Source: a virus. Taken from it: a DNA stretch of 51,457 nucleotides. The notes beneath the pieces were generated by a model. The model did not search any database and had not been told where the DNA came from. It saw nothing but the letters and a program-made list of their open reading frames with translations. Both the position numbers and the translations under genes were made by a program. Of the stretch, positions 36,644-47,907 are shown one piece after another (positions within the stretch are counted from its first letter, which is position 1; each line of letters begins with the position of its first letter). The DNA is taken from positions 1-51,457 of IMG/VR virus record IMGVR_UViG_3300046804_003072. The stretch is one strand, 5' to 3'.

Positions 36644-37942
36644 TTACAGAAGTCGAAAATTTATGTCATCAATGGGAGGATTGTTGACGACCAGAGCCTC
36701 TTGAATTCGATTCCTCACAGGGACGTTGGCAATGTTTACGGTGATGCTGCCTAACTCAAACGTTCCCACTTCCAATGAAGCGTTGTTCTCATGTATGATG
36801 TCGTTGATTTTGACAATGACCACATCATTGAAGATATTCTCACTTTGCGTCATATCCACGTTCAACACTACGTCGTCTTGCACGGGGAAGTCCACAAAGA
36901 CATCCTCGGCCTTGAGCGTTCGGTAGTATTTCTTGTAGAGTTCCCAATCCGAAGGGCTGATATTCAACAACTGGTTGGCAAAGTCGTGGAATTTGTTGAA
37001 CGAATCACGGAACTGTTGACGCACTACGAAGTTGTCAACGTAGATGCGTTGAAACCGATAGTAGTTCTGAATGATAGGCGCAGCGTTGTGCGGGGTGACA
37101 TTGGTAAAGTTTGCACTGACCCAATACTTGTATTCTTTTTCAGGGTCAAATGTCGTGTCATGTTTGAACGTAGGCCATTTCTGTAAGAAGCGGGTCATTT
37201 CCACCATGTCGGCCTGCTGTTGCAATGCCGTGCGTGCCTTGGCCTTTTCCGTCCACCATTCGATGCCTCGGGATGACGTGCAGGTAAAGTGATAGACCAG
37301 AGCATTCCATGCTTGTTCAATCTTCAGCCCCTTCATTGTGAAGCGATACAGAAGGTCAGAGTCTTCACGAGACCGACGGAAAAGTGTGTCATGACCACCA
37401 ATCTCTAACCAATGTTTTTTGTAGAGGGTGAAGGGAGCAAACCAGTAGTTTGTGATTCGGTCTTGCTTTCGTTGGTTGGCAAATCTGGTGAAAGCGTCCA
37501 AGTCGAATGCCCGTGGGTTGAGTCCGAAATCGTGAGTAATCTTCTCGGGCGATTCAGGATGTAATGGTGGTTCAATGCGGGTGGACGATATGATGTTTGA
37601 TTCATTTAAGTGCTTAAGAACTTCCAAGTCGTAATCAGTCGAAATTACCATATCACTCTGTAAATATGATACAATTGGATACTTAGCCATTTCAAACATC
37701 AGGTTGATGTTTCGGGCATATCCAATAGGTATTGGTAATGGGTTTACGACAATTTTTAGATCGGAGAAAATAGATTTTTGAGTCTTCAAAAACTCAACTG
37801 TACCTTGGTTGTCATTCTCAACATAAACAATGATTTCATGGTCATGTCGTGATAGATTTCTATGCAATGAACGAAACAGTAGTTCCAAATGAAATCGTTC
37901 GTTTCTGGCAGTATTGATACAAAATGTAATTTGGTTAGACAT
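36644..37942 (-). CDS. Family 2 glycosyltransferase
   Basis: The 432-residue GT-A enzyme has an N-terminal Rossmann-like part (I-V-Y-V-E-N-D-N, I-G-Y-A-R-N-I-N), Q-S-D-M as the D-x-D equivalent at about 96-99, and a central F-A-P-F-T-L-Y and G-G-H-D-T-L-F with R-E-D-S-D. The C-terminal ~170 residues are beta-rich and unrecognised. It adds a sugar to the glycan made by this operon. Overlaps the HNH gene by 8 nt; its 5' end is more AT-rich than the rest. Confidence 0.75.
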   Translation of the reverse strand: MSNQITFCINTARNERFHLELLFRSLHRNLSRHDHEIIVYVENDNQGTVEFLKTQKSIFSDLKIVVNPLPIPIGYARNINLMFEMAKYPIVSYLQSDMVISTDYDLEVLKHLNESNIISSTRIEPPLHPESPEKITHDFGLNPRAFDLDAFTRFANQRKQDRITNYWFAPFTLYKKHWLEIGGHDTLFRRSREDSDLLYRFTMKGLKIEQAWNALVYHFTCTSSRGIEWWTEKAKARTALQQQADMVEMTRFLQKWPTFKHDTTFDPEKEYKYWVSANFTNVTPHNAAPIIQNYYRFQRIYVDNFVVRQQFRDSFNKFHDFANQLLNISPSDWELYKKYYRTLKAEDVFVDFPVQDDVVLNVDMTQSENIFNDVVIVKINDIIHENNASLEVGTFELGSITVNIANVPVRNRIQEALVVNNPPIDDINFRLL

Positions 37943-38393
37943 GACGTATGTTCTTTATTTTTCGGATGGTCTTTCCCATAAGTAGCATTTCATCGTGAGT
38001 GAACACATTACTCTTTACGCCATTACACATTGGGCAGCAGACGCAACAATTTTTTACTGAATACCCTCGATTACTGTCTATTCGGTCAAGATAGTAATTA
38101 TAGTGGTTCTCTCTCCGGTTACGAGCGTGAGGTTGCCATTCTATATCACATCCACAATAACTACAAGATTTTATATCAGTAAACCTGACGAATTCTTGAT
38201 ATGTTATGTTGCAGGGCACATTACGTTTTTTGGCTTTGTGTCGAAGTGTTGTAAGTAAAAATTCATATGGCCTATTTTTGTGGCTACAACTCGTGCAGGT
38301 AAGATTAAGACGGATTGATTTTAAGAGGTTGCTCCGATGTGTGTAGGTCATCAATCCCCCACACTTGGGGCAGTCTTTGGAAAGAGTAGTCAT
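37935..38393 (-). CDS. HNH-like homing endonuclease with zinc ribbon
   Basis: The 152-residue protein has an N-terminal zinc ribbon (C-P-K-C-G-G at 9-14, C-T-S-C near 33-36). The nuclease block is C-S-Y-C-G, then Y-L-D-R-I-D-S-N-R-G-Y-x-x-x-N-C-C-V-C-C. Same family as 6202 and 24388. It sits between an SDR gene (ATGA overlap) and a GT2 gene (8-nt overlap), so it is inserted without breaking translation. Confidence 0.7.
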   Translation of the reverse strand: MTTLSKDCPKCGGLMTYTHRSNLLKSIRLNLTCTSCSHKNRPYEFLLTTLRHKAKKRNVPCNITYQEFVRFTDIKSCSYCGCDIEWQPHARNRRENHYNYYLDRIDSNRGYSVKNCCVCCPMCNGVKSNVFTHDEMLLMGKTIRKIKNIRHV

Positions 38394-39241
38394 GTTAATT
38401 CTTCAACCATTCGGACAATGCCTTGTTCGAGACCATACAAGTCATAGCCTTGTTGTGCCAATACGATACCGTTACCAGTGTAAGGGTTATCCAGTCCGGG
38501 GGTCTTGATTTCAAAGTTGTCAAGTTTACCCATGACGTGACAAATGTTTTTAGCAAGGTCAGACAGCAGAACTTTTTTCTGATAGACCAAGTTCATATGC
38601 CGAGTATCACTTTCTTGGTCTGTGATAACACGGTCAACGACCGCAGCAACGTCGTCAATGTAAAAGAAATCCATGTATTTGTCCTTGAGGATTTCAATTG
38701 GCAAACCTTGCTTCAACCGATTGATGGAACGTTTGATGAATCGAAAATCAGGTTCATCTGCTCCAAAGCAGCCGAACAGACGAAGTAAGAATGGATTGCT
38801 AACATCCCACCCGTCGTCATATGTGCCATTGACAAAGCGACGAGAAATGATGTTCTTGGTCAACCCATACAAATCCAAGGGGTAGTTGTGAAAGAGTTCA
38901 ACTTCACGAGCATCATCAATTGGGAAACGACGGTCAAATTCTGCGCCCGAACCAAAAATAATCGTCGGACGCTCAATCGAGTCGGCCATGTAGATGTTTT
39001 CATACATGGTTAGGTTGGAAACCAAATCACTCTCAGTGTTTTGAGCCGAGAAATGGCCTTTGAATGCAGTATGTATGATGGCGTCGGGACAATGACGATT
39101 CAAATACTCGACATATCCCTCGTAATTGGTCATATCCAACTCTTGACGAGTTGGAGCGAGAACTGTGTGGTCGTATTTGGGAAGTATGCGGGCAAGATTT
39201 CTACCAACAAATCCACCCCCACCTGTGATTAGAACTCTCAT
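38390..39241 (-). CDS. SDR sugar-nucleotide reductase/epimerase
   Basis: The 283-residue extended SDR has G-G-G-G-F-V-G at 7-13 (NAD(P) site), F-G-S-G-A-E-F for the Ser region, and Y-G-L-T-K (Y-x-x-x-K). The N-terminal half resembles WcaG/RmlD-type reductases. It directly follows the split transketolase, which fits a reductase of a freshly branched keto sugar (YerF-like) but a GDP-fucose-synthase-like role cannot be excluded. Coupled by ATGA on both sides. Confidence 0.75.
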   Translation of the reverse strand: MRVLITGGGGFVGRNLARILPKYDHTVLAPTRQELDMTNYEGYVEYLNRHCPDAIIHTAFKGHFSAQNTESDLVSNLTMYENIYMADSIERPTIIFGSGAEFDRRFPIDDAREVELFHNYPLDLYGLTKNIISRRFVNGTYDDGWDVSNPFLLRLFGCFGADEPDFRFIKRSINRLKQGLPIEILKDKYMDFFYIDDVAAVVDRVITDQESDTRHMNLVYQKKVLLSDLAKNICHVMGKLDNFEIKTPGLDNPYTGNGIVLAQQGYDLYGLEQGIVRMVEELT

Positions 39242-39714
39242 TTTGACAAATTCATGTAGGATGGACGACCATTATTGATGAAATGATGCATTGCATGAGC
39301 CATTGCTTCTTCGGACTCGGGTTTGTAAAGCGCAATGTTGCTCAAAGTTGACAAAACTGTGATGTCTTCATCTGCCCAATGGGTGTAGCCGAGGTATCCA
39401 TAGTCTTTGTTGCGTCCACCGCCGACGATTTTGATGGGCGTGTTCTCAAAATGCATGTAGTTGCGGATGAACTCGAATGGCCGATAGATGGCAAATGGGG
39501 TGATTGAATAACAAACAGGCACACGACCCTCCAACGCCATGCCACAGGCTGCGCCAATCATGAGTTGTTCGGCAGAACCAACGTTGAAGAAGCGAGTTGG
39601 ATAGGTATCCCGCACAGCATCCCATAGACCATAGCCCATGTCGGCAGTAATCAGCACAATGGATTCATTTTGACCCATGAGCGACAACAAATTGGCAGCA
39701 AATGCTTTTCTCAT
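39238..39714 (-). CDS. Transketolase C-terminal subunit (split enzyme)
   Basis: The 158-residue pyrimidine-binding (Pyr) domain of transketolase: I-T-A-D-M-G-Y-G, then F-F-N-V-G-S-A-E-Q-L-M-I-G-A-A-C-G-M-A with the Glu that activates thiamine diphosphate, and F-A-I-Y-R-P-F-E-F-I-R. The third domain of full transketolase is missing. It needs the N-terminal subunit encoded just upstream (TAATG overlap). Such two-gene transketolases are common and move two-carbon units. Confidence 0.85.
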   Translation of the reverse strand: MRKAFAANLLSLMGQNESIVLITADMGYGLWDAVRDTYPTRFFNVGSAEQLMIGAACGMALEGRVPVCYSITPFAIYRPFEFIRNYMHFENTPIKIVGGGRNKDYGYLGYTHWADEDITVLSTLSNIALYKPESEEAMAHAMHHFINNGRPSYMNLSK

Positions 39715-40412
39715 TACTGTGGTGCTCCTTCGACAATCGTTGCCCCAGCGACCAATGGCATTTCCTTGGTCAATTCCAGTGCTACAAGATAGTCTGGTTC
39801 TTTCATGATATGATAGTGGGCATTCATACCTTTCAAAAACGGAAATTCTTCGGTTGCTCTCTGAATGCCATGAACAATGGTGATGTTTCCATTGCTATTG
39901 AACGGTGCGAGACGGGCAGCAAACGTATTCAGAGGAATCTCACGATATGCCCCGAATCCATTGTGCATGATGTAAACCTTGATGTTTGGAATCTTCTCGT
40001 CGGCGATGAATCGGAGGCTTTCCCACACGACTCCCTCGGCGCATTCACCATCACTGAGCATGACATATACCTTGCGAGAAGGATTTGCCAAGGCCCGACC
40101 TACAGCGACAGAAATTCCCATTCCAAGACTACCAGTGGAGCACCAGATGAAGTTGTCGGGGTCTAAGTGAGGATGACCACCATGTTTCTTGAATAGTTTC
40201 TCGGCATCTACGCCGTGGTGTTTTTCCAGAACGACGTATTGTGCCAAGGCTGCGTGGCCGTTTGAAAGGATGAAGATGTCTTCGGGAGACTTCTGGTTGA
40301 AAATCATTTCGATGGTGTCCACACAAGACATATAGCTGCCCAAGTGGGACAGTTTGTTCTTGTATGCAATCTCAATGATGCGGCGTTTCAGGTCTTTGTT
40401 CAGAGTTACCAT
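39714..40412 (-). CDS. Transketolase N-terminal subunit (split enzyme)
   Basis: The 232-residue ThDP-binding PP domain has H-L-G-S-Y-M-S-C-V-D at about 21-30, I-L-S-N-G-H-A-A-L-A-Q, G-S-L-G-M-G-I-S-V-A-V-G and the Mg/ThDP motif S-D-G-E-C-A-E-G-V-V-W-E with the partner N near 155. Start taken at 40412 (M-V-T-L-N-K-D), overlapping the dehydratase by 7 nt. With the 39238 product it would form one active transketolase. In a sugar cluster its likely acceptor is a keto-sugar nucleotide. Confidence 0.85.
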   Translation of the reverse strand: MVTLNKDLKRRIIEIAYKNKLSHLGSYMSCVDTIEMIFNQKSPEDIFILSNGHAALAQYVVLEKHHGVDAEKLFKKHGGHPHLDPDNFIWCSTGSLGMGISVAVGRALANPSRKVYVMLSDGECAEGVVWESLRFIADEKIPNIKVYIMHNGFGAYREIPLNTFAARLAPFNSNGNITIVHGIQRATEEFPFLKGMNAHYHIMKEPDYLVALELTKEMPLVAGATIVEGAPQ

Positions 40413-41350
40413 ACAAAATGGTCGGTGTAATGTTCCACGATGCTGCGTAATTGGTAGTCGAATTGTTTTTTCGGCTTCCATCCCAAAGCTTTAAGCTTGG
40501 AGTCATCCAACGCATAGCGGACATCTTGACCATCACGAGAATACGTGAAATCGCAGAATTGTTCAACATTTTTTATTCCATACATGATGTGGACAATTCG
40601 TTCGACAACTTCGATGTTCTGTAACTCCTGATTTCCTGAGATATTATAGATTTCGTTCGTAACACCTGATTCTATGATGGTTACGACTGCCTCTGCCGTA
40701 TCCGCAGCATGTAGCCACATGCGATAGGGCTTGCCTCCGTTGTGAAGGGGAATCTTTCGGTCCAAGTTCAGATATTTTACTGTCTTGGGAATCAGCTTCT
40801 CAACGTATTGGCCGATACCGTAATTGTTGGTTGGCCGGACAATGATGTAGGGGACTTTGAAGGTTCGTGCCCAAGCCAAAATGAGCATGTCAGCAGCCGC
40901 CTTGGTTGCTGAATATGGGTTGGAGGGCTTGAGAAGGTCTTTCTCGGTGTGTGCGCCTTCGGAAATGTCGCCATACACTTCATCAGTGCTGAAATGAAGC
41001 AAGGTGGGCATCTTAAAGAGACCCTTTTGCCGAATCAGTTCCAACAAATGTTTGACACCATTGATGTTTGAGTGGAGAAATTCATCGCTGCTTACGATAG
41101 AGTTGTCAACGTGCGTTTCTGCCGCAGTATTGATAACATAGTCACAATCCAACAAGGATGTCAGGTCGTTGATGTCAGACTTGATGAACTTGAAGTTGGG
41201 GTTCTTTTGAAAGGCTTCCAGACGGTCTGGTTGAGAAGCATATGTCATCTTGTCAACGCCAATGACATACCAGCCTTTGTCAAGGCAGGCTTGCGTGACA
41301 TATGCCCCAATGAATCCGAGGCATCCCGTGACATATACAATCTTTTTCAT
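40406..41350 (-). CDS. NDP-glucose 4,6-dehydratase (RmlB-like)
   Basis: The 314-residue extended SDR has G-C-L-G-F-I-G at 9-15, A-A-E-T-H-V-D-N-S-I at 76-85, S-T-D-E-V-Y-G at 121-127 with the Asp-Glu dehydration pair, and Y-S-A-T-K at 146-150. These are the full RmlB set. It makes NDP-4-keto-6-deoxyglucose. The nucleotide (dTDP or CDP) cannot be read from sequence by eye. Gene order places it just before the transketolase pair. Confidence 0.88.
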   Translation of the reverse strand: MKKIVYVTGCLGFIGAYVTQACLDKGWYVIGVDKMTYASQPDRLEAFQKNPNFKFIKSDINDLTSLLDCDYVINTAAETHVDNSIVSSDEFLHSNINGVKHLLELIRQKGLFKMPTLLHFSTDEVYGDISEGAHTEKDLLKPSNPYSATKAAADMLILAWARTFKVPYIIVRPTNNYGIGQYVEKLIPKTVKYLNLDRKIPLHNGGKPYRMWLHAADTAEAVVTIIESGVTNEIYNISGNQELQNIEVVERIVHIMYGIKNVEQFCDFTYSRDGQDVRYALDDSKLKALGWKPKKQFDYQLRSIVEHYTDHFVW

Positions 41351-41583
41351 ACTCCGTCTTGCTTTTGTTTGCGCTTCTTGGCAATGAATTTGCGAATCAA
41401 TTCAAGTTGAACTTCAACTGAGAAGCCATTTTTGACTCCCGTTTCTAAGTCTTCGTCCAACTGTTCCATTGTAACGCCCATGCTTTTCAGAAGTTCGCTC
41501 TTGACGTAATCCTTGTCTTCTTGGGACATCCAAGGCTCGTAGAGCATTTCAAAAATCTGGTTTAGTGATGCTTCGTGTTTCAT
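41347..41583 (-). CDS. 78-residue hypothetical protein in the glycan operon
   Basis: Helical, charged protein (Q-I-F-E-M-L-Y-E-P-W-M-S-Q-E-D, then M-E-Q-L-D-E-D-L and a basic end K-K-R-K-Q-K-Q). Start 41583 gives ATGA overlap with the methyltransferase; stop overlaps the dehydratase ATG. No family recognised. Confidence 0.55.
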   Translation of the reverse strand: MKHEASLNQIFEMLYEPWMSQEDKDYVKSELLKSMGVTMEQLDEDLETGVKNGFSVEVQLELIRKFIAKKRKQKQDGV

Positions 41584-42275
41584 ACCTTTTTCTTCAATAC
41601 AAAATACCAATTCCAACTGGTTCTTAGTTCTTCGGGCATTTCTTCTTCGGCCTGCAACCGTGGGTAATCAGGTGTTTGTAGGGGTGACGGGTAAACCGAA
41701 TCCACCACAAACCCATGAATGTAGAAGAAATACAACACGTTGTCGTAATCCCACAGTCCACGGTAGAGAAATTGATGCCCCATTCTCCAATTGGGCACGC
41801 TGATTAAGACCTGAGAGGTTTCAGTCGTCAGAGCATGAATCTTACGTAACACATTAGAGGGAGCGAGCAAATGCTCCAATACATCATTACATATCACCAA
41901 GTCATAGGAAGAGTTCAACCCATTTGTATCAAGGTCAATGGCGATGTCTTTGACGAAGAACTTGCCCTTAAAATTATTCTCCTTGAAGAATTTCTCAGCA
42001 AATGGCTTATCCACCAGATGATAGTCAATCTCAAGGTCTTTTTGAACCAGTTGGCTCAAATGTCCCGGTCCAGACCCAATTTCAAGGACAGTCTTGGCCG
42101 ACCCTTCCTTGATTACTTCACGGACAAGCTGGGCTTCATATTCATAACGAATTTCCCATCCCTTCTCGTGGACACGGGTTGTGTTTTCCCATTCATTTGA
42201 ATCCAAGGTGTCAAGGTCTTTGTGGACGTTGAAATCTCGTTCAAACGGGACGTGTTGTAATCGGAAGACGCTCAT
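41580..42275 (-). CDS. Class I SAM methyltransferase
   Basis: The 231-residue protein has motif I V-L-E-I-G-S-G-P-G-H-L-S at about 62-73, L-V-I-C-N-D-V-L-E-H-L-L (motif post-II with the D-V-L-E-H signature) and a C-terminal cap. Methyltransf_11-type enzymes in glycan clusters usually methylate sugars. ATGA overlaps on both ends. Confidence 0.8.
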   Translation of the reverse strand: MSVFRLQHVPFERDFNVHKDLDTLDSNEWENTTRVHEKGWEIRYEYEAQLVREVIKEGSAKTVLEIGSGPGHLSQLVQKDLEIDYHLVDKPFAEKFFKENNFKGKFFVKDIAIDLDTNGLNSSYDLVICNDVLEHLLAPSNVLRKIHALTTETSQVLISVPNWRMGHQFLYRGLWDYDNVLYFFYIHGFVVDSVYPSPLQTPDYPRLQAEEEMPEELRTSWNWYFVLKKKV

Positions 42276-43621
42276 AGGGCTTTGAAAAACTCGTTGACCT
42301 TTGTTTCTACGTAATCAAGTTGGTTATGGTTGATGACGGGGCTTGTTCCCAAGAATAATGTGTCGGTGGTAACTTTGGTTGCCACTGGATATGCTGTCTT
42401 AGCATTGGAAATAGTTGCTCCACTCCAATGATATGAATTCAATCCCTTGGTTAGTTCGCTATATGCTGGTTGTAAGAGAATGTTCCCACCAAAATAGTTG
42501 CGTGTCTGAATTTTGTTACCTTCCAAGAATTGTGTCAAAGTTGACCGCTTAAAAGGAGCAGAGTCACGGACTGTGATTGGAAATGCGAACCACGACGGGT
42601 CAGAAAGCAGAGTCGCCCCGTGCATGTGGAAGTATTGCTCATAGGGGTTGAATATCTGTGACAGTCGGCGGTGATTAAACTTGCGACGTGAATGGATTTC
42701 AGGCAACTTATCCATTTGTGCCAGACCCATTGAGCATTGAAGTTCGATTGGCTTCAGATTGTAGCCAATGTTGTCATAGACGTATTTGTGGTCGAAGATT
42801 TCATCTGGAATCTCAGGAATCCATGCGCTGAAGCGGCAACCACAGCTTCCTTTGGTTGAAAGGTTTGCTTTCTTACCAACACAGAAGCAACCACGTCCCC
42901 ATTCACGGAGACTGCGGGCAATCTTTTCTTGAATGTCATTGGAGCAGGCAACAAACCCACCTTCACCCATTGTCATGTGATGGGCAGGATAGAATGAGCA
43001 AGTAGCCATATCTGCCGTAGAACCGACAGGAATGCCCTCGTAGGTTGTTCCCAAAGCATCGCAGCAGTCTTCCAATACAATCAGACCATACTTTGATTTG
43101 ATAGCATCAAGACGGGTCATGTCGGGAGGATTTCCAAGAACATGTGCGAACATCAAGACCCGTGCCCCATTCTTGGCTGCTTCCTCAACTTGGTCGAGGT
43201 TCAGGTTGAGTGTGCTCAACTCAATATCAACAAACACAGGTGTAAGCTTGGCTTGAATGATGGGATTAACGGTTGTAGGGAAACCAGCCGCAGGAACGAT
43301 GACTTTAGTGCCATCTTCCCACTTGAAGTATTTCTTGGCAGTCAGCACCATGATAAGATTGGCACTGGAACCACTGTTTACGACAATACCGTGCTTTTTT
43401 CCGAGCAACGGTGGGAACTTGCTTTCAAACTTCATGGCATCTTCGCCAAGAACCAACCACTCGTTGAGAAGTGAGCCGATGGCGTTGACGTATTCTTTCT
43501 CGTCGAAGTACGCACCAGCATATTGAACCCAATCTACTCCGGGCGTCCACTTCTTTGCCGCTTGCTTTTCCAAAATGTATTCAGCGACATCCTTGAGAAT
43601 TTCATCTTTACTTTTTGCCAT
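42272..43621 (-). CDS. PLP-dependent sugar 3-dehydrase, RfbH/E1-like
   Basis: This is a 449-residue DegT/DnrJ/EryC1-family protein. In the catalytic loop S-F-Y-P-A-H-H-M-T-M-G-E-G-G (209-222) the Schiff-base Lys of aminotransferases is replaced by His215, the hallmark of 3-dehydrases making 3,6-dideoxyhexoses. C245-x-C247 and C260-x-C262 lie where CDP-4-keto-6-deoxyglucose 3-dehydrase (E1, RfbH/DdhC) binds [2Fe-2S], which separates it from ColD. It would remove the 3-OH of a 4-keto-6-deoxy sugar. The partner flavin/iron-sulfur reductase (E3) is not in the window. The gene overlaps the GME gene by 14 nt. Confidence 0.85.
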   Translation of the reverse strand: MAKSKDEILKDVAEYILEKQAAKKWTPGVDWVQYAGAYFDEKEYVNAIGSLLNEWLVLGEDAMKFESKFPPLLGKKHGIVVNSGSSANLIMVLTAKKYFKWEDGTKVIVPAAGFPTTVNPIIQAKLTPVFVDIELSTLNLNLDQVEEAAKNGARVLMFAHVLGNPPDMTRLDAIKSKYGLIVLEDCCDALGTTYEGIPVGSTADMATCSFYPAHHMTMGEGGFVACSNDIQEKIARSLREWGRGCFCVGKKANLSTKGSCGCRFSAWIPEIPDEIFDHKYVYDNIGYNLKPIELQCSMGLAQMDKLPEIHSRRKFNHRRLSQIFNPYEQYFHMHGATLLSDPSWFAFPITVRDSAPFKRSTLTQFLEGNKIQTRNYFGGNILLQPAYSELTKGLNSYHWSGATISNAKTAYPVATKVTTDTLFLGTSPVINHNQLDYVETKVNEFFKAL

Positions 43622-45318: not shown

Positions 45319-46133
45319 TGGTAGTGCTTGATTATCTCGACCAAGCCTTCATTGATTTCCGTGGTAGGTTTCCACAGATTCAAGATGTATTGGTCTGGTT
45401 CGTTACGTTGTCCCTTTTGAACAGTGTCTTTGTCCACTCCGGGCACAATTGGAACGTTACCACATAGTTTAGAGATATTCTGTGCAATGTCAATAATTTT
45501 TAACCACTTAAATGTGGTAATGTGAAGCTCTTGGTCTCGGGGAACATTTTTATATTGTTCTGCTAATGTCAACAGACACTCAGAACAGTCCCGAGCGTAT
45601 AAAAACTGACGTTCTTCTTCACCATCGGTTCGCATACGAATTTCCTTGTTTTCCAAGGCCATCTTCACAAAGTCCGTAATGACGTGTGTCTTCGCCGGGT
45701 CATGTTCTACCCCATACACGTTCCAAAACTTCACCACAAGCCCGCCAAGGCTCTTTGTGTAGAATTCTCCGAGGGCTTTAAGAGTGCCGTAACTCGAAAA
45801 GGACATATTCGACATCTGGCTGGACGCAAAGATGAATGGCTTATTATATCTTCGGAGGGCATCGAAGGTCACTTGCATGAGGCGGGTGTTGTTGTCAATG
45901 AACTGGAAGGTGTGTTGGTAAGCCTTCAAATACGTTGAACCACCGACATCAAATGCCAAGAAGAACACAAAGTCGGCTTCTTGCATGTAATTGTCAATGC
46001 GACCAGCCACTCGCAAGTCTTCCACTGCTGTTCGGGCAATGTCAAAGTGACGGACTTGATGGCCTTCCGATTTCAAATAGGTTGCGAGTGCCGCACCGAT
46101 TTGACCTGACGAACCTAAGACGAGACATTTCAT
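45315..46133 (-). CDS. NAD-dependent epimerase/dehydratase (SDR)
   Basis: The 272-residue extended SDR has G-S-S-G-Q-I-G at 7-13, F-A-S-S-Q-M-S near 102, Y-G-T-L-K (Y-x-x-x-K), F-W-N-V-Y-G and R-Q-F-L-Y-A-R-D-C. Substrate unknown; could epimerise or reduce the dideoxy or GDP-linked sugar. ATGA overlaps on both sides. Confidence 0.78.
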   Translation of the reverse strand: MKCLVLGSSGQIGAALATYLKSEGHQVRHFDIARTAVEDLRVAGRIDNYMQEADFVFFLAFDVGGSTYLKAYQHTFQFIDNNTRLMQVTFDALRRYNKPFIFASSQMSNMSFSSYGTLKALGEFYTKSLGGLVVKFWNVYGVEHDPAKTHVITDFVKMALENKEIRMRTDGEEERQFLYARDCSECLLTLAEQYKNVPRDQELHITTFKWLKIIDIAQNISKLCGNVPIVPGVDKDTVQKGQRNEPDQYILNLWKPTTEINEGLVEIIKHYQ

Positions 46134-47002
46134 AGTGATTCAAATTTCTGTTTGTAATTGTTGAAGACCCAATCGAACCGAGTGTTGTAGGCTCGTGCCT
46201 TCTCAACATTCTCTTGCACCGCAGCAATCTTGCTGTGATACAGTTCGGGAGTCAGGGTAGGCAACAAAGCATCCAACTCTTCAATTGTGTTGAATGAAAT
46301 GATGCCATCGGGATTGAAATACTTTCCGATGTTATCTGTGCCCCACCAAATCGGAATTGTTCCTGCGGCCAATACGTCGGTAAGGATTTCCGTAAAGTAA
46401 TCATCAGACTTCGAGTTCATGATGGCGAATGAAAAATAGTAGGGAGCTACCGCCAGAATTTTACCAAGTCGTCCACCATTGTAGTTGTCAATGATGTTGT
46501 TGTAGCCACTACCATACGTCTCAATTTTGCCGGGATAACGATTGACGACGACGTGACGAAGCTTGTGTCCTTCCGTCCATTGTTTGTGGGAAGCAACGAT
46601 TGAAATCAATCGTTCTTTTTCATACATACCAAACTCTTCGAGTTTGATGCGATTGCCGCCCGCAGGCATCCACAGATAACGGTCGCCCACCAAGTCTTTG
46701 AGCCACGTTTGAGGACTCATGACATAGGTGAAATGTTGGTGGTTCTCTCGAATCCACTTGTAGGGATGAAACAAAGAGGGATTGTTGCCGCAACAGAAGT
46801 CGTAGATAGCAGGGGCTTCGACGATGGCTGCAATTTTGATTTTGTTGGGATGCTGAACGTGGTTGGGGAGGAATGTGTCCTCGAAAATGTGAACGTCACC
46901 ATCAGGAGTTCCCTTTACCCAATCCCAAACTTCTTGGGCAGGAGGAATCATGTCAACGTAGTTGGAACGCTCTTCGGCTGTGTGATATGTAACTTTTTTC
47001 AT
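46130..47002 (-). CDS. Family 10 glycosyltransferase (alpha-1,3-fucosyltransferase-like)
   Basis: The 290-residue protein has the GT10 donor-binding block near 194-235: Y-F-S-F-A-I-M-N-S-K-S-D-D-Y-F-T-E-I-L followed by A-A-G-T-I-P-I-W-W-G. The usual E-N is M-N here and T-E-K is T-E-I, so it is a divergent member. GT10 enzymes use GDP-L-fucose, and some can use GDP-L-galactose, which the GME in this operon makes. Confidence 0.75.
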   Translation of the reverse strand: MKKVTYHTAEERSNYVDMIPPAQEVWDWVKGTPDGDVHIFEDTFLPNHVQHPNKIKIAAIVEAPAIYDFCCGNNPSLFHPYKWIRENHQHFTYVMSPQTWLKDLVGDRYLWMPAGGNRIKLEEFGMYEKERLISIVASHKQWTEGHKLRHVVVNRYPGKIETYGSGYNNIIDNYNGGRLGKILAVAPYYFSFAIMNSKSDDYFTEILTDVLAAGTIPIWWGTDNIGKYFNPDGIISFNTIEELDALLPTLTPELYHSKIAAVQENVEKARAYNTRFDWVFNNYKQKFESL

Positions 47003-47907
47003 ATGTTTGATGCAAGTATTGTTCCGATATTTGAAAACTCCGTGTATGGTATTCTTAATAACTGAACTTGATTGTTTTTAGCCCATTTAGTCTTTAAGGA
47101 GTCTCTACGTTGATTGTTTTTTAACTCCCGATTGGTCATTTTGTGTCTTCCATGATGTATGCATTTGAAATGTTGTTCGCCATCATATTCAATCAATATA
47201 TTTTTTAATGGAATAAAAAAATCAAATGGTAATTTCTTATTTGTTTTTGGATTCCGCAAATCATCGAAAGTTTTCTGTCGTATGTAATTGACGTGGTTAT
47301 CTTTTAACCACTTTTCAATTTTCAATTCTCCCCGTGAAGAGTTACATATCGGACATCCATGCCCCTTTAGATGATTGTGTGGAGTTTGTAAAAAATCCCC
47401 ATGAATTTTACATGTGATAGTAATGTCAGAATGTGCCGATGAATAATCTACTTTAGAGTAGTCATACAAATCTCCATGTTGTTGAATTGCATTTTCAATA
47501 AAATCTTTTGAAGATTTTTTGAAATTTCCATAACATACCGGACACCCCTGCTCTCCATATAAATGGTTTACGGGTGATTGGAAAAAATATCCATGAATTT
47601 TACAACCTATAGTTATTTTTTCATATCTATTTTTATATTCCGATTTAGAGTAATCATACTTGTTCCCATGAATTTCTTTGGCACGTTTAATAAATTCTTG
47701 CGTAGTCAATTTCAAATTATTACTACATGATTTACACCCAAATCCTTGCAAATGTGCTCCTGCGGATTGTCTAAAATCTCCATGTTTATTGCACGTTATT
47801 ACAATCTTTTCTTTTACTCCAGAATAAATAGATTTGGAATAATCATATTTATTTCCATGCGTTTTAGAGGCTCGGGCTATAAAATCTTTAGTTGTTAATT
47901 TTCGCAT
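46999..47907 (-). CDS. Homing endonuclease with zinc-ribbon repeats and PD-(D/E)XK/Vsr-like domain
   Basis: The 302-residue protein has three tandem repeats of ~60 residues, each F-I-x-x-A, H-G-x-x-Y-D-Y-S, then I-x-C-x-x-H-G-x-F and H-L-x-G-x-G-C-x-x-C. These zinc-binding DNA-recognition repeats are followed by a nuclease domain with D-F-F-I-P-L and I-L-I-E-Y-D-G-E-Q-H-F. That arrangement is seen in Vsr/EDxHD-like homing endonucleases. Low GC, inserted between two glycosyltransferase genes with ATGA overlap downstream and 13-nt overlap upstream. Start 47907 or 47922. Confidence 0.75.
   Translation of the reverse strand: MRKLTTKDFIARASKTHGNKYDYSKSIYSGVKEKIVITCNKHGDFRQSAGAHLQGFGCKSCSNNLKLTTQEFIKRAKEIHGNKYDYSKSEYKNRYEKITIGCKIHGYFFQSPVNHLYGEQGCPVCYGNFKKSSKDFIENAIQQHGDLYDYSKVDYSSAHSDITITCKIHGDFLQTPHNHLKGHGCPICNSSRGELKIEKWLKDNHVNYIRQKTFDDLRNPKTNKKLPFDFFIPLKNILIEYDGEQHFKCIHHGRHKMTNRELKNNQRRDSLKTKWAKNNQVQLLRIPYTEFSNIGTILASNI

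Follow-up and report, generated by a model that had tools for sequence, protein, structure and literature searches.

A split minimal transketolase in a phage gene cassette likely to make a C4-branched 3,6-dideoxyhexose

A phage cassette predicted to make a branched deoxysugar

We analyzed the viral record IMGVR_UViG_3300046804_003072 from IMG/VR, a stretch of 51,457 bases referred to here as the window, in which the functions of all genes were inferred. Its minus strand carries a cassette for an E1-type 3-dehydrase, a nucleoside diphosphate (NDP)-glucose 4,6-dehydratase, the two halves (TKn and TKc) of a transketolase (TK), and a short-chain dehydrogenase/reductase (SDR). We consider it likely that this cassette supplies a phage-made glycan with an activated C4-branched 3,6-dideoxyhexose and that the synthesis runs via the split TK. 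The product is most likely NDP-3,6-dideoxy-4-C-(1,2-dihydroxyethyl)hexose, whereby donor, nucleotide, and product are inferred. The evidence comprises gene content, active-site residues, gene order, recurrence, and the exchange of modules between cassettes.

The first-pass annotation of this DNA had grouped the 3-dehydrase, the 4,6-dehydratase, both TK halves, and the SDR. This grouping was borne out, as all of them matched their families and the gene ends overlap at the junctions between dehydratase and TKn, TKn and TKc, and TKc and SDR. The gene block is no chance grouping, because the contiguity of TKn, TKc, and SDR recurs together with the dehydratase in most of 64 distinct viral loci.

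In the proposed pathway, the 4,6-dehydratase would convert an NDP-glucose, probably host dTDP-glucose, to NDP-4-keto-6-deoxyglucose, as expected from its family. The E1, which is of the RfbH type, would then remove the 3-hydroxyl group with the help of pyridoxamine phosphate (PMP), a [2Fe-2S] cluster, and a host reductase; family and active-site residues suggest that this gives NDP-4-keto-3,6-dideoxyglucose. Subsequently, the split minimal TK would take a ketol unit of two carbons from a ketose (or ketose phosphate) of the host and attach it to the C4 ketone. Judging from cassette anatomy and module exchange, the result would be a tertiary alcohol with a hydroxyacetyl branch, the ketone of which the SDR may reduce to a 1,2-dihydroxyethyl group. 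Transfer of the sugar to the glycan would then fall to a glycosyltransferase, probably the family 2 glycosyltransferase (GT2) at 36644. In related viruses, the third step would be performed by a YerE-like decarboxylase, often accompanied by genes supplying longer alpha-keto acids, or by a split pair resembling pyruvate dehydrogenase (PDH) E1, so that other branches would be handled by the same reductase family. If the pathway holds true, a TK enzyme class not previously shown to do so joins a ketol unit to a ketone.

Three types of carboligase share one place in viral cassettes

Using profiles derived from seed genes, we scored the 8 kb flanking each related locus on either side. Only the best 80 matches of each IMG/VR scan were examined (80 of 307 for the TK, 80 of 437 for E1), and IMG/VR contigs are fragments; moreover, most of the loci behind the TK profile had first been found through E1, so that the TK and E1 surveys are not fully independent. 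Among the 64 distinct loci found with the TK profile, TKc came next in 63, the SDR followed in 61, and a 4,6-dehydratase-type gene was present in 60. A PMP-dependent 3-dehydrase with histidine at the lysine position was located within 8 kb in 51 of them, and eight of the 13 records without such a nearby His-type dehydrase have a homologue elsewhere in the record. The SDR lay within 100 bp after TKc in 96% of 91 loci.

The distinct loci found through E1 that contain a matching dehydratase and at least 1.5 kb of sequence beyond it all have a carboligase dependent on thiamine diphosphate (ThDP; 49 of 49). Three kinds of this enzyme occur between the 4,6-dehydratase and the SDR, namely the split TK, a split PDH-E1-alpha/beta-like pair (L007, L011, L029, and others), or a YerE/acetolactate-synthase-like (JanthE-like) enzyme. 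The YerE-like protein of L006 has the YerE architecture, matched JanthE (8rph) with 600 bits, and shares its unusual CDG motif. That a transketolase occupies the position of YerE, as had been proposed from the sequence, is thus in agreement with the relatives, where all three kinds fill this slot. A 2025 review counts YerE-like decarboxylases, enzymes of the alpha-keto-acid-dehydrogenase type, and transketolases among the enzymes that branch sugars in nature (PMC12247030). In addition, L093, L112, and L015 carry two branching modules side by side (PDH-like and TK, or YerE-like and PDH-like).

In a tree of 93 SDRs, the ThDP enzyme type changes 21 times, compared to a mean of 29 after shuffling, and the well-supported branches alone force 11 changes for the TK label. 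Close SDR relatives stand next to different carboligases, e.g. L042 (YerE-like) with L095 and L097 (TK), and L012 (YerE-like) with L114 (TK). The ThDP types look like exchangeable modules for one step, the carboligation onto a 4-keto sugar; their exchange beside one SDR family is the strongest argument that all three carry out the same step.

This exchange also bears on the possibility that the TK acts on ordinary sugar phosphates in the pentose phosphate pathway, as auxiliary metabolism for nucleotide supply, and merely adjoins the deoxysugar genes. Pentose phosphate pathway genes such as transaldolase do occur in phages. However, the TK pair is almost always followed directly by an SDR and usually preceded by a 4,6-dehydratase, the YerE-like and PDH-like enzymes with which it is exchanged have no role in the pentose phosphate pathway, and the TK lacks its C-terminal domain and is a member of a family found almost exclusively in viruses. 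We rejected such an auxiliary metabolism because of the swapping with other carboligases and regard it as highly improbable.

Similarly, the product might be an unbranched 3,6-dideoxyhexose of the paratose, abequose, or tyvelose type, with the SDR acting as a 4-ketoreductase and the TK serving a separate sugar in the cluster. RfbH and a reductase indeed suffice to make paratose or abequose in Salmonella and Yersinia, and the SDR of the window is distantly RmlD-like. Nonetheless, the presence of a carboligase in every complete locus with E1 and dehydratase, as well as the occurrence of one SDR family after three different carboligases, make an unbranched sugar very unlikely.

The carboligase modules also differ in their surroundings. 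The median gap to the SDR is 0 bp for the TK, 6 bp for the PDH-like, and 1860 bp for the YerE-type module. The gap between YerE-like gene and SDR often holds makers of alpha-keto acids, i.e. MhpE/MhpF and PanB (over cut-offs), HpcH/HpaI, or NeuB-like proteins, where MhpE/MhpF denotes 4-hydroxy-2-oxovalerate aldolase with acetaldehyde dehydrogenase and PanB denotes ketopantoate hydroxymethyltransferase. ErwE, which is YerE-like, prefers hydroxy-keto acids (PMC12247030). Since the TK cassette needs no keto-acid-making gene, and has none, a branching TK would fit a donor taken from host sugar phosphates.

Two further layouts were observed around the YerE-like enzyme. In L010, L012, L017, L073, L074, and L077, a double-[4Fe-4S] protein of ~385 amino acids (aa) and a protein of ~126 aa are encoded between the YerE-like gene and the SDR; the former is, in L010, distantly like cyanobacterial LdpA (NF045992, 141 bits). 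L023, L040, L056, L075, and L080 contain an AroB-related putative sugar-phosphate phospholyase (TIGR04425 with 376 bits in L023, cut-off 400), a short SDR, and an aldolase or NeuB-like gene, which perhaps constitute a route to a longer keto-acid donor.

Beyond the single cassette, we lean, with some reservation, towards a combinatorial branching system in environmental tailed phages. A conserved chassis of RmlB-like dehydratase, PMP 3-dehydrase, and SDR would be combined with one of three swapped ThDP carboligases, with or without genes for an alpha-keto-acid donor, so that each phage makes its own C4-branched 3,6-dideoxyhexose and the TK version the 4-C-(1,2-dihydroxyethyl) sugar. This suggests that phages may diversify their surface glycans by swapping carbon-carbon-bond-forming modules.

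The two halves form a minimal transketolase

The first-pass annotation had described both halves of a transketolase. Both are indeed present, with matches to PF00456 (N-half) and PF02779 (C-half), but they make up a minimal TK, as the C-terminal TK domain PF02780 was found neither in these proteins nor anywhere else in the window. The three-domain architecture of YerE (TPP_enzyme_N/M/C) is likewise not present in this ThDP enzyme, which has TK domains instead. Across 14 aligned viral copies per half, the ThDP motif SDGE...N and the TK histidines 23, 53, and 80 are invariant in the N-half (aligned to 6yak), as are the catalytic Glu49 and His112 in the C-half (aligned to 6yaj). AlphaFold modelled the halves with a predicted local distance difference test (pLDDT) score of 86 and 88, respectively, and the top Foldseek matches of the N-half are transketolases. 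By residues and models, the pair resembles transketolases, and it is predicted to transfer a ketol unit.

An alternative is that the sugar is branched, but that the TK-like pair transfers another unit, for instance acetyl from pyruvate as in DXS, or depends on an unusual or non-phosphorylated donor. The C-half scores almost as high with DXS as with TK (47.4 versus 56.7 bits), its fold matches after the split transketolase are mainly DXS, and without the C-terminal domain the donor site may differ. On the other hand, the N-half is clearly TK-like (79.5 bits versus 23.8 for DXS) and has the TGSLG motif as well as the histidine of GHP. Among solved structures, the split transketolase 6yaj/6yak is closest in sequence to both halves, and 6yaj is also closest in fold to the C-half. 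Moreover, the likely role for pyruvate is already taken by the PDH-E1-like module in sister loci. We therefore consider transfer of another unit unlikely and favor ketol transfer.

The acceptor sugar and its nucleotide

E1 exceeded the cut-off of the RfbH model NF011936 (438.3 bits, cut-off 423), and its closest solved structures are the E1 entries 3bcx and 3bb8 (E=3e-87). The residue aligned with position 220 of 3bcx, where aminotransferases have the pyridoxal phosphate-binding lysine, is His214 and not the adjoining His215 that had been named in the first-pass annotation. The four cysteines reported there were found at C187-x57-C245-x1-C247-x12-C260; they are kept in long viral homologues and are putative ligands of a [2Fe-2S] cluster. 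The published pattern of E1 cluster ligands is C-x57-C-x1-C-x7-C, so that the final spacing in the window is five residues longer and the remainder fits.

The 4,6-dehydratase scored 309 bits with the dTDP-glucose model TIGR01181, which is below the cut-off of 365, and 70 bits with the CDP-glucose model TIGR02622 (cut-off 278). Across 29 viral records, i.e. the window and 28 related ones, the best TIGR01181 match was 267-333 bits in 26, and no record had a protein over the TIGR02622 cut-off; in most viral cassettes, the dehydratase copies are 60-75% identical. By these scores, the dehydratase of the window is RmlB-like, on the dTDP side, and not of the CDP-glucose type. Given RmlB-like dehydratases in the cassettes and none above the CDP cut-off, the viruses probably draw on host dTDP-glucose. 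The CDP-linked route assumed earlier is accordingly disfavored for the virus.

Several observations weigh against the proposed pathway. An RmlB-like dehydratase and an RfbH-type E1 are not the classical pair. The domain of the E3 reductase (PF00175), which we sought in the window and the 28 related records, was absent from all 29; electrons for E1 must hence be delivered by the host or by a protein that went unrecognised. A nucleotidyltransferase of the glucose-1-phosphate cytidylyltransferase type was not found in the window either (no PF00483 match), although a check of the 29 records yielded PF00483 proteins in six, of which three were scanned and matched no characterised type. For the window, both E3 and the nucleotidyltransferase must therefore be provided by the host. 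Furthermore, 17 of the 64 TK loci have only a shorter His-type dehydrase without Fe-S cysteines in place of the Fe-S E1, and the acceptor sugar may therefore differ among viruses. In 13 of 68 distinct E1 loci, neither a dehydratase nor a ThDP enzyme occurs in the available sequence. Finally, no TK of the proposed branching role has been characterised in vitro (PMC12247030).

In many TK loci (L095-L099, L105-L107, L110, L119, L139, and others), RfbH is replaced by a PMP-type dehydrase of 380 aa, which has the motif SFYASHVITAGG and no Fe-S cysteines. It possibly represents a family of cluster-free 3-dehydrases.

Distribution of the transketolase family

The profile scan of IMG/VR identified 307 contigs that encode the TK N-half and 437 that encode the 3-dehydrase. 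The same N-half profile found 10 loci in 84,980 species genomes. Two more genome samples (396 and 398 genomes; 794 of two phyla) contained no further close relative of the TK; they yielded the two seed genomes and otherwise distant matches only, in open frames of about 260-410 aa. The TK family is thus mostly viral, nearly virus-only. Among 50,697 phage genome records, no close TK relative was found, as matches to the TK halves and to the YerE-like protein were at most about 35% identical and the annotated ones are bacterial-type transketolase or acetolactate synthase genes. This agrees with the earlier statement that no phage had been described with this route, and we found a phage route of this type in no title or abstract of a literature coverage largely without subscription papers. 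RfbH itself occurs without the TK in isolated cyanophages such as S-H68. The Synechococcus phages RN05-S and S-H68 (L004, L005) have a related deoxysugar cluster, with RfbH, RmlB/RmlC-like, cytidylyltransferase, and transaldolase genes.

Outside the viruses, cellular relatives of the TK provide an independent link to the CDP-dideoxyhexose pathway. They stem from two Actinomarina single-cell genomes. In L171, RfbH is located directly before TKn-TKc; in L172, a CDP-glucose 4,6-dehydratase (over cut-off) and a glucose-1-phosphate cytidylyltransferase-like gene lie beside TKn-TKc. This adjacency in cells ties the TK to the dideoxyhexose pathway.

Overall, these findings suggest that viruses are a major, apparently undescribed source of branched-sugar chemistry, and they provide hundreds of candidate enzymes for the question of whether transketolases join carbon units to ketones. 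With five core genes, the TK cassette is small and can be rebuilt in vitro.

Gene block and neighboring genes

Matches to the PHROG database for a UvsX-like recombinase, a DnaB-like helicase, an exonuclease, a DNA polymerase, and ribonucleotide reductase suggest that the window derives from a T4-like tailed phage. The glycan cluster extends on the minus strand from ~51 to 36 kb, and the cassette forms its part from 43621 to 38390 in the order E1, methyltransferase, small open reading frame (ORF), 4,6-dehydratase, TKn, TKc, and SDR (Table 1); the five core genes are open.

Table 1 Genes of the cassette and the adjacent glycosyltransferase in the window.
Feature	Position	Strand	Basis
E1 NDP-4-keto-6-deoxyhexose 3-dehydrase, RfbH family, PMP-dependent (predicted)	42272..43621	-	NF011936, 3bcx/3bb8, active-site residues
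Class I methyltransferase, possible sugar O-methyltransferase	41580..42275	-	PF13489
89-aa ORF	41347..41616	-	no Pfam/NCBIfam/PHROG match
NDP-glucose 4,6-dehydratase, RmlB-like	40406..41350	-	TIGR01181
Minimal TK N-half, ThDP pyrophosphate-binding domain, 232 aa	39714..40412	-	PF00456, 6yak alignment, AlphaFold/Foldseek
Minimal TK C-half, pyrimidine-binding domain only, 158 aa	39238..39714	-	PF02779, 6yaj
SDR, candidate ketoreductase of the new branch (YerF place in the first-pass scheme)	38390..39241	-	PF01370
GT2 glycosyltransferase, candidate transferase of the branched sugar	36644..37942	-	PF00535

As in relatives, the TK N-half most likely starts at 40412 (MVTLNKDL...) rather than at 40481. 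Methyltransferase copies that are 63% and 59% identical lie between E1 and dehydratase in the two relatives L002 and L009, and the 89-aa ORF was not seen in relatives. GT2 copies of 48-66% identity follow the SDR in L002, L006, L007, L008, L009, L013, and L086, a layout of the closest relatives that spans TK, YerE-like, and PDH-like modules. The glycan cluster also contains three genes for probable nucleases of the homing or zinc-finger type (37935-38393, 46999-47922, and 50450-51160), one of them between the SDR and the GT2 gene. Since a fusion of GT2 with GT11 (alpha-1,2-fucosyltransferase-like) at 47895-49451 lies near a GT10-like gene at 46130, the glycan may also contain fucose or a similar sugar.

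Comparison with known systems

The yersiniose A pathway of Yersinia pseudotuberculosis is CDP-linked and consists of RfbF, RfbG, RfbH/E1, E3, YerE, and a ketoreductase. The window has in common with it a 4,6-dehydratase, a PMP/Fe-S 3-dehydrase, a ThDP carboligase, a reductase, and the expected acceptor 4-keto-3,6-dideoxyglucose. It differs in that it is viral, has TK halves for YerE and an RmlB-like dehydratase, and contains neither a cytidylyltransferase nor E3. By analogy, it is well supported that the cassette would work like the yersiniose pathway without being a member of it, because the CDP dehydratase, the cytidylyltransferase, E3, and YerE were sought and not found.

In branching of the erwiniose/JanthE type, YerE-like enzymes use 4-hydroxy-2-oxoacids (PMC12247030, PMC12188165). 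The window has neither a YerE-like enzyme nor donor-making genes, whereas the sister cassettes L006, L008, L021, and L042 combine a JanthE/YerE-like enzyme with MhpE/MhpF-like genes that would make 4-hydroxy-2-oxopentanoate. Split-gene transketolases of Streptomyces have been proposed, though not proven, to transfer hydroxyacetyl to keto sugars in the branching of miharamycin and amipurimycin (PMC12247030). These belong to antibiotic gene clusters, all from Streptomyces, and are likened to the window by their description. The split transketolase of Carboxydothermus hydrogenoformans (6yak, 6yaj) has the same ThDP and catalytic residues as the TK of the window; its solved chains comprise 309 and 341 residues, compared to halves of 232 and 158 without the C-terminal domain. 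Lastly, the PDH-E1-like (alphaKADH2) enzymes AviB1/AviB2 and KbDH-alpha/beta are two-gene ThDP enzymes that place an acyl branch onto a ketone or keto sugar. Their enzyme type is not that of the window, but a counterpart module is found in the sister loci L007, L011, L029, and others.

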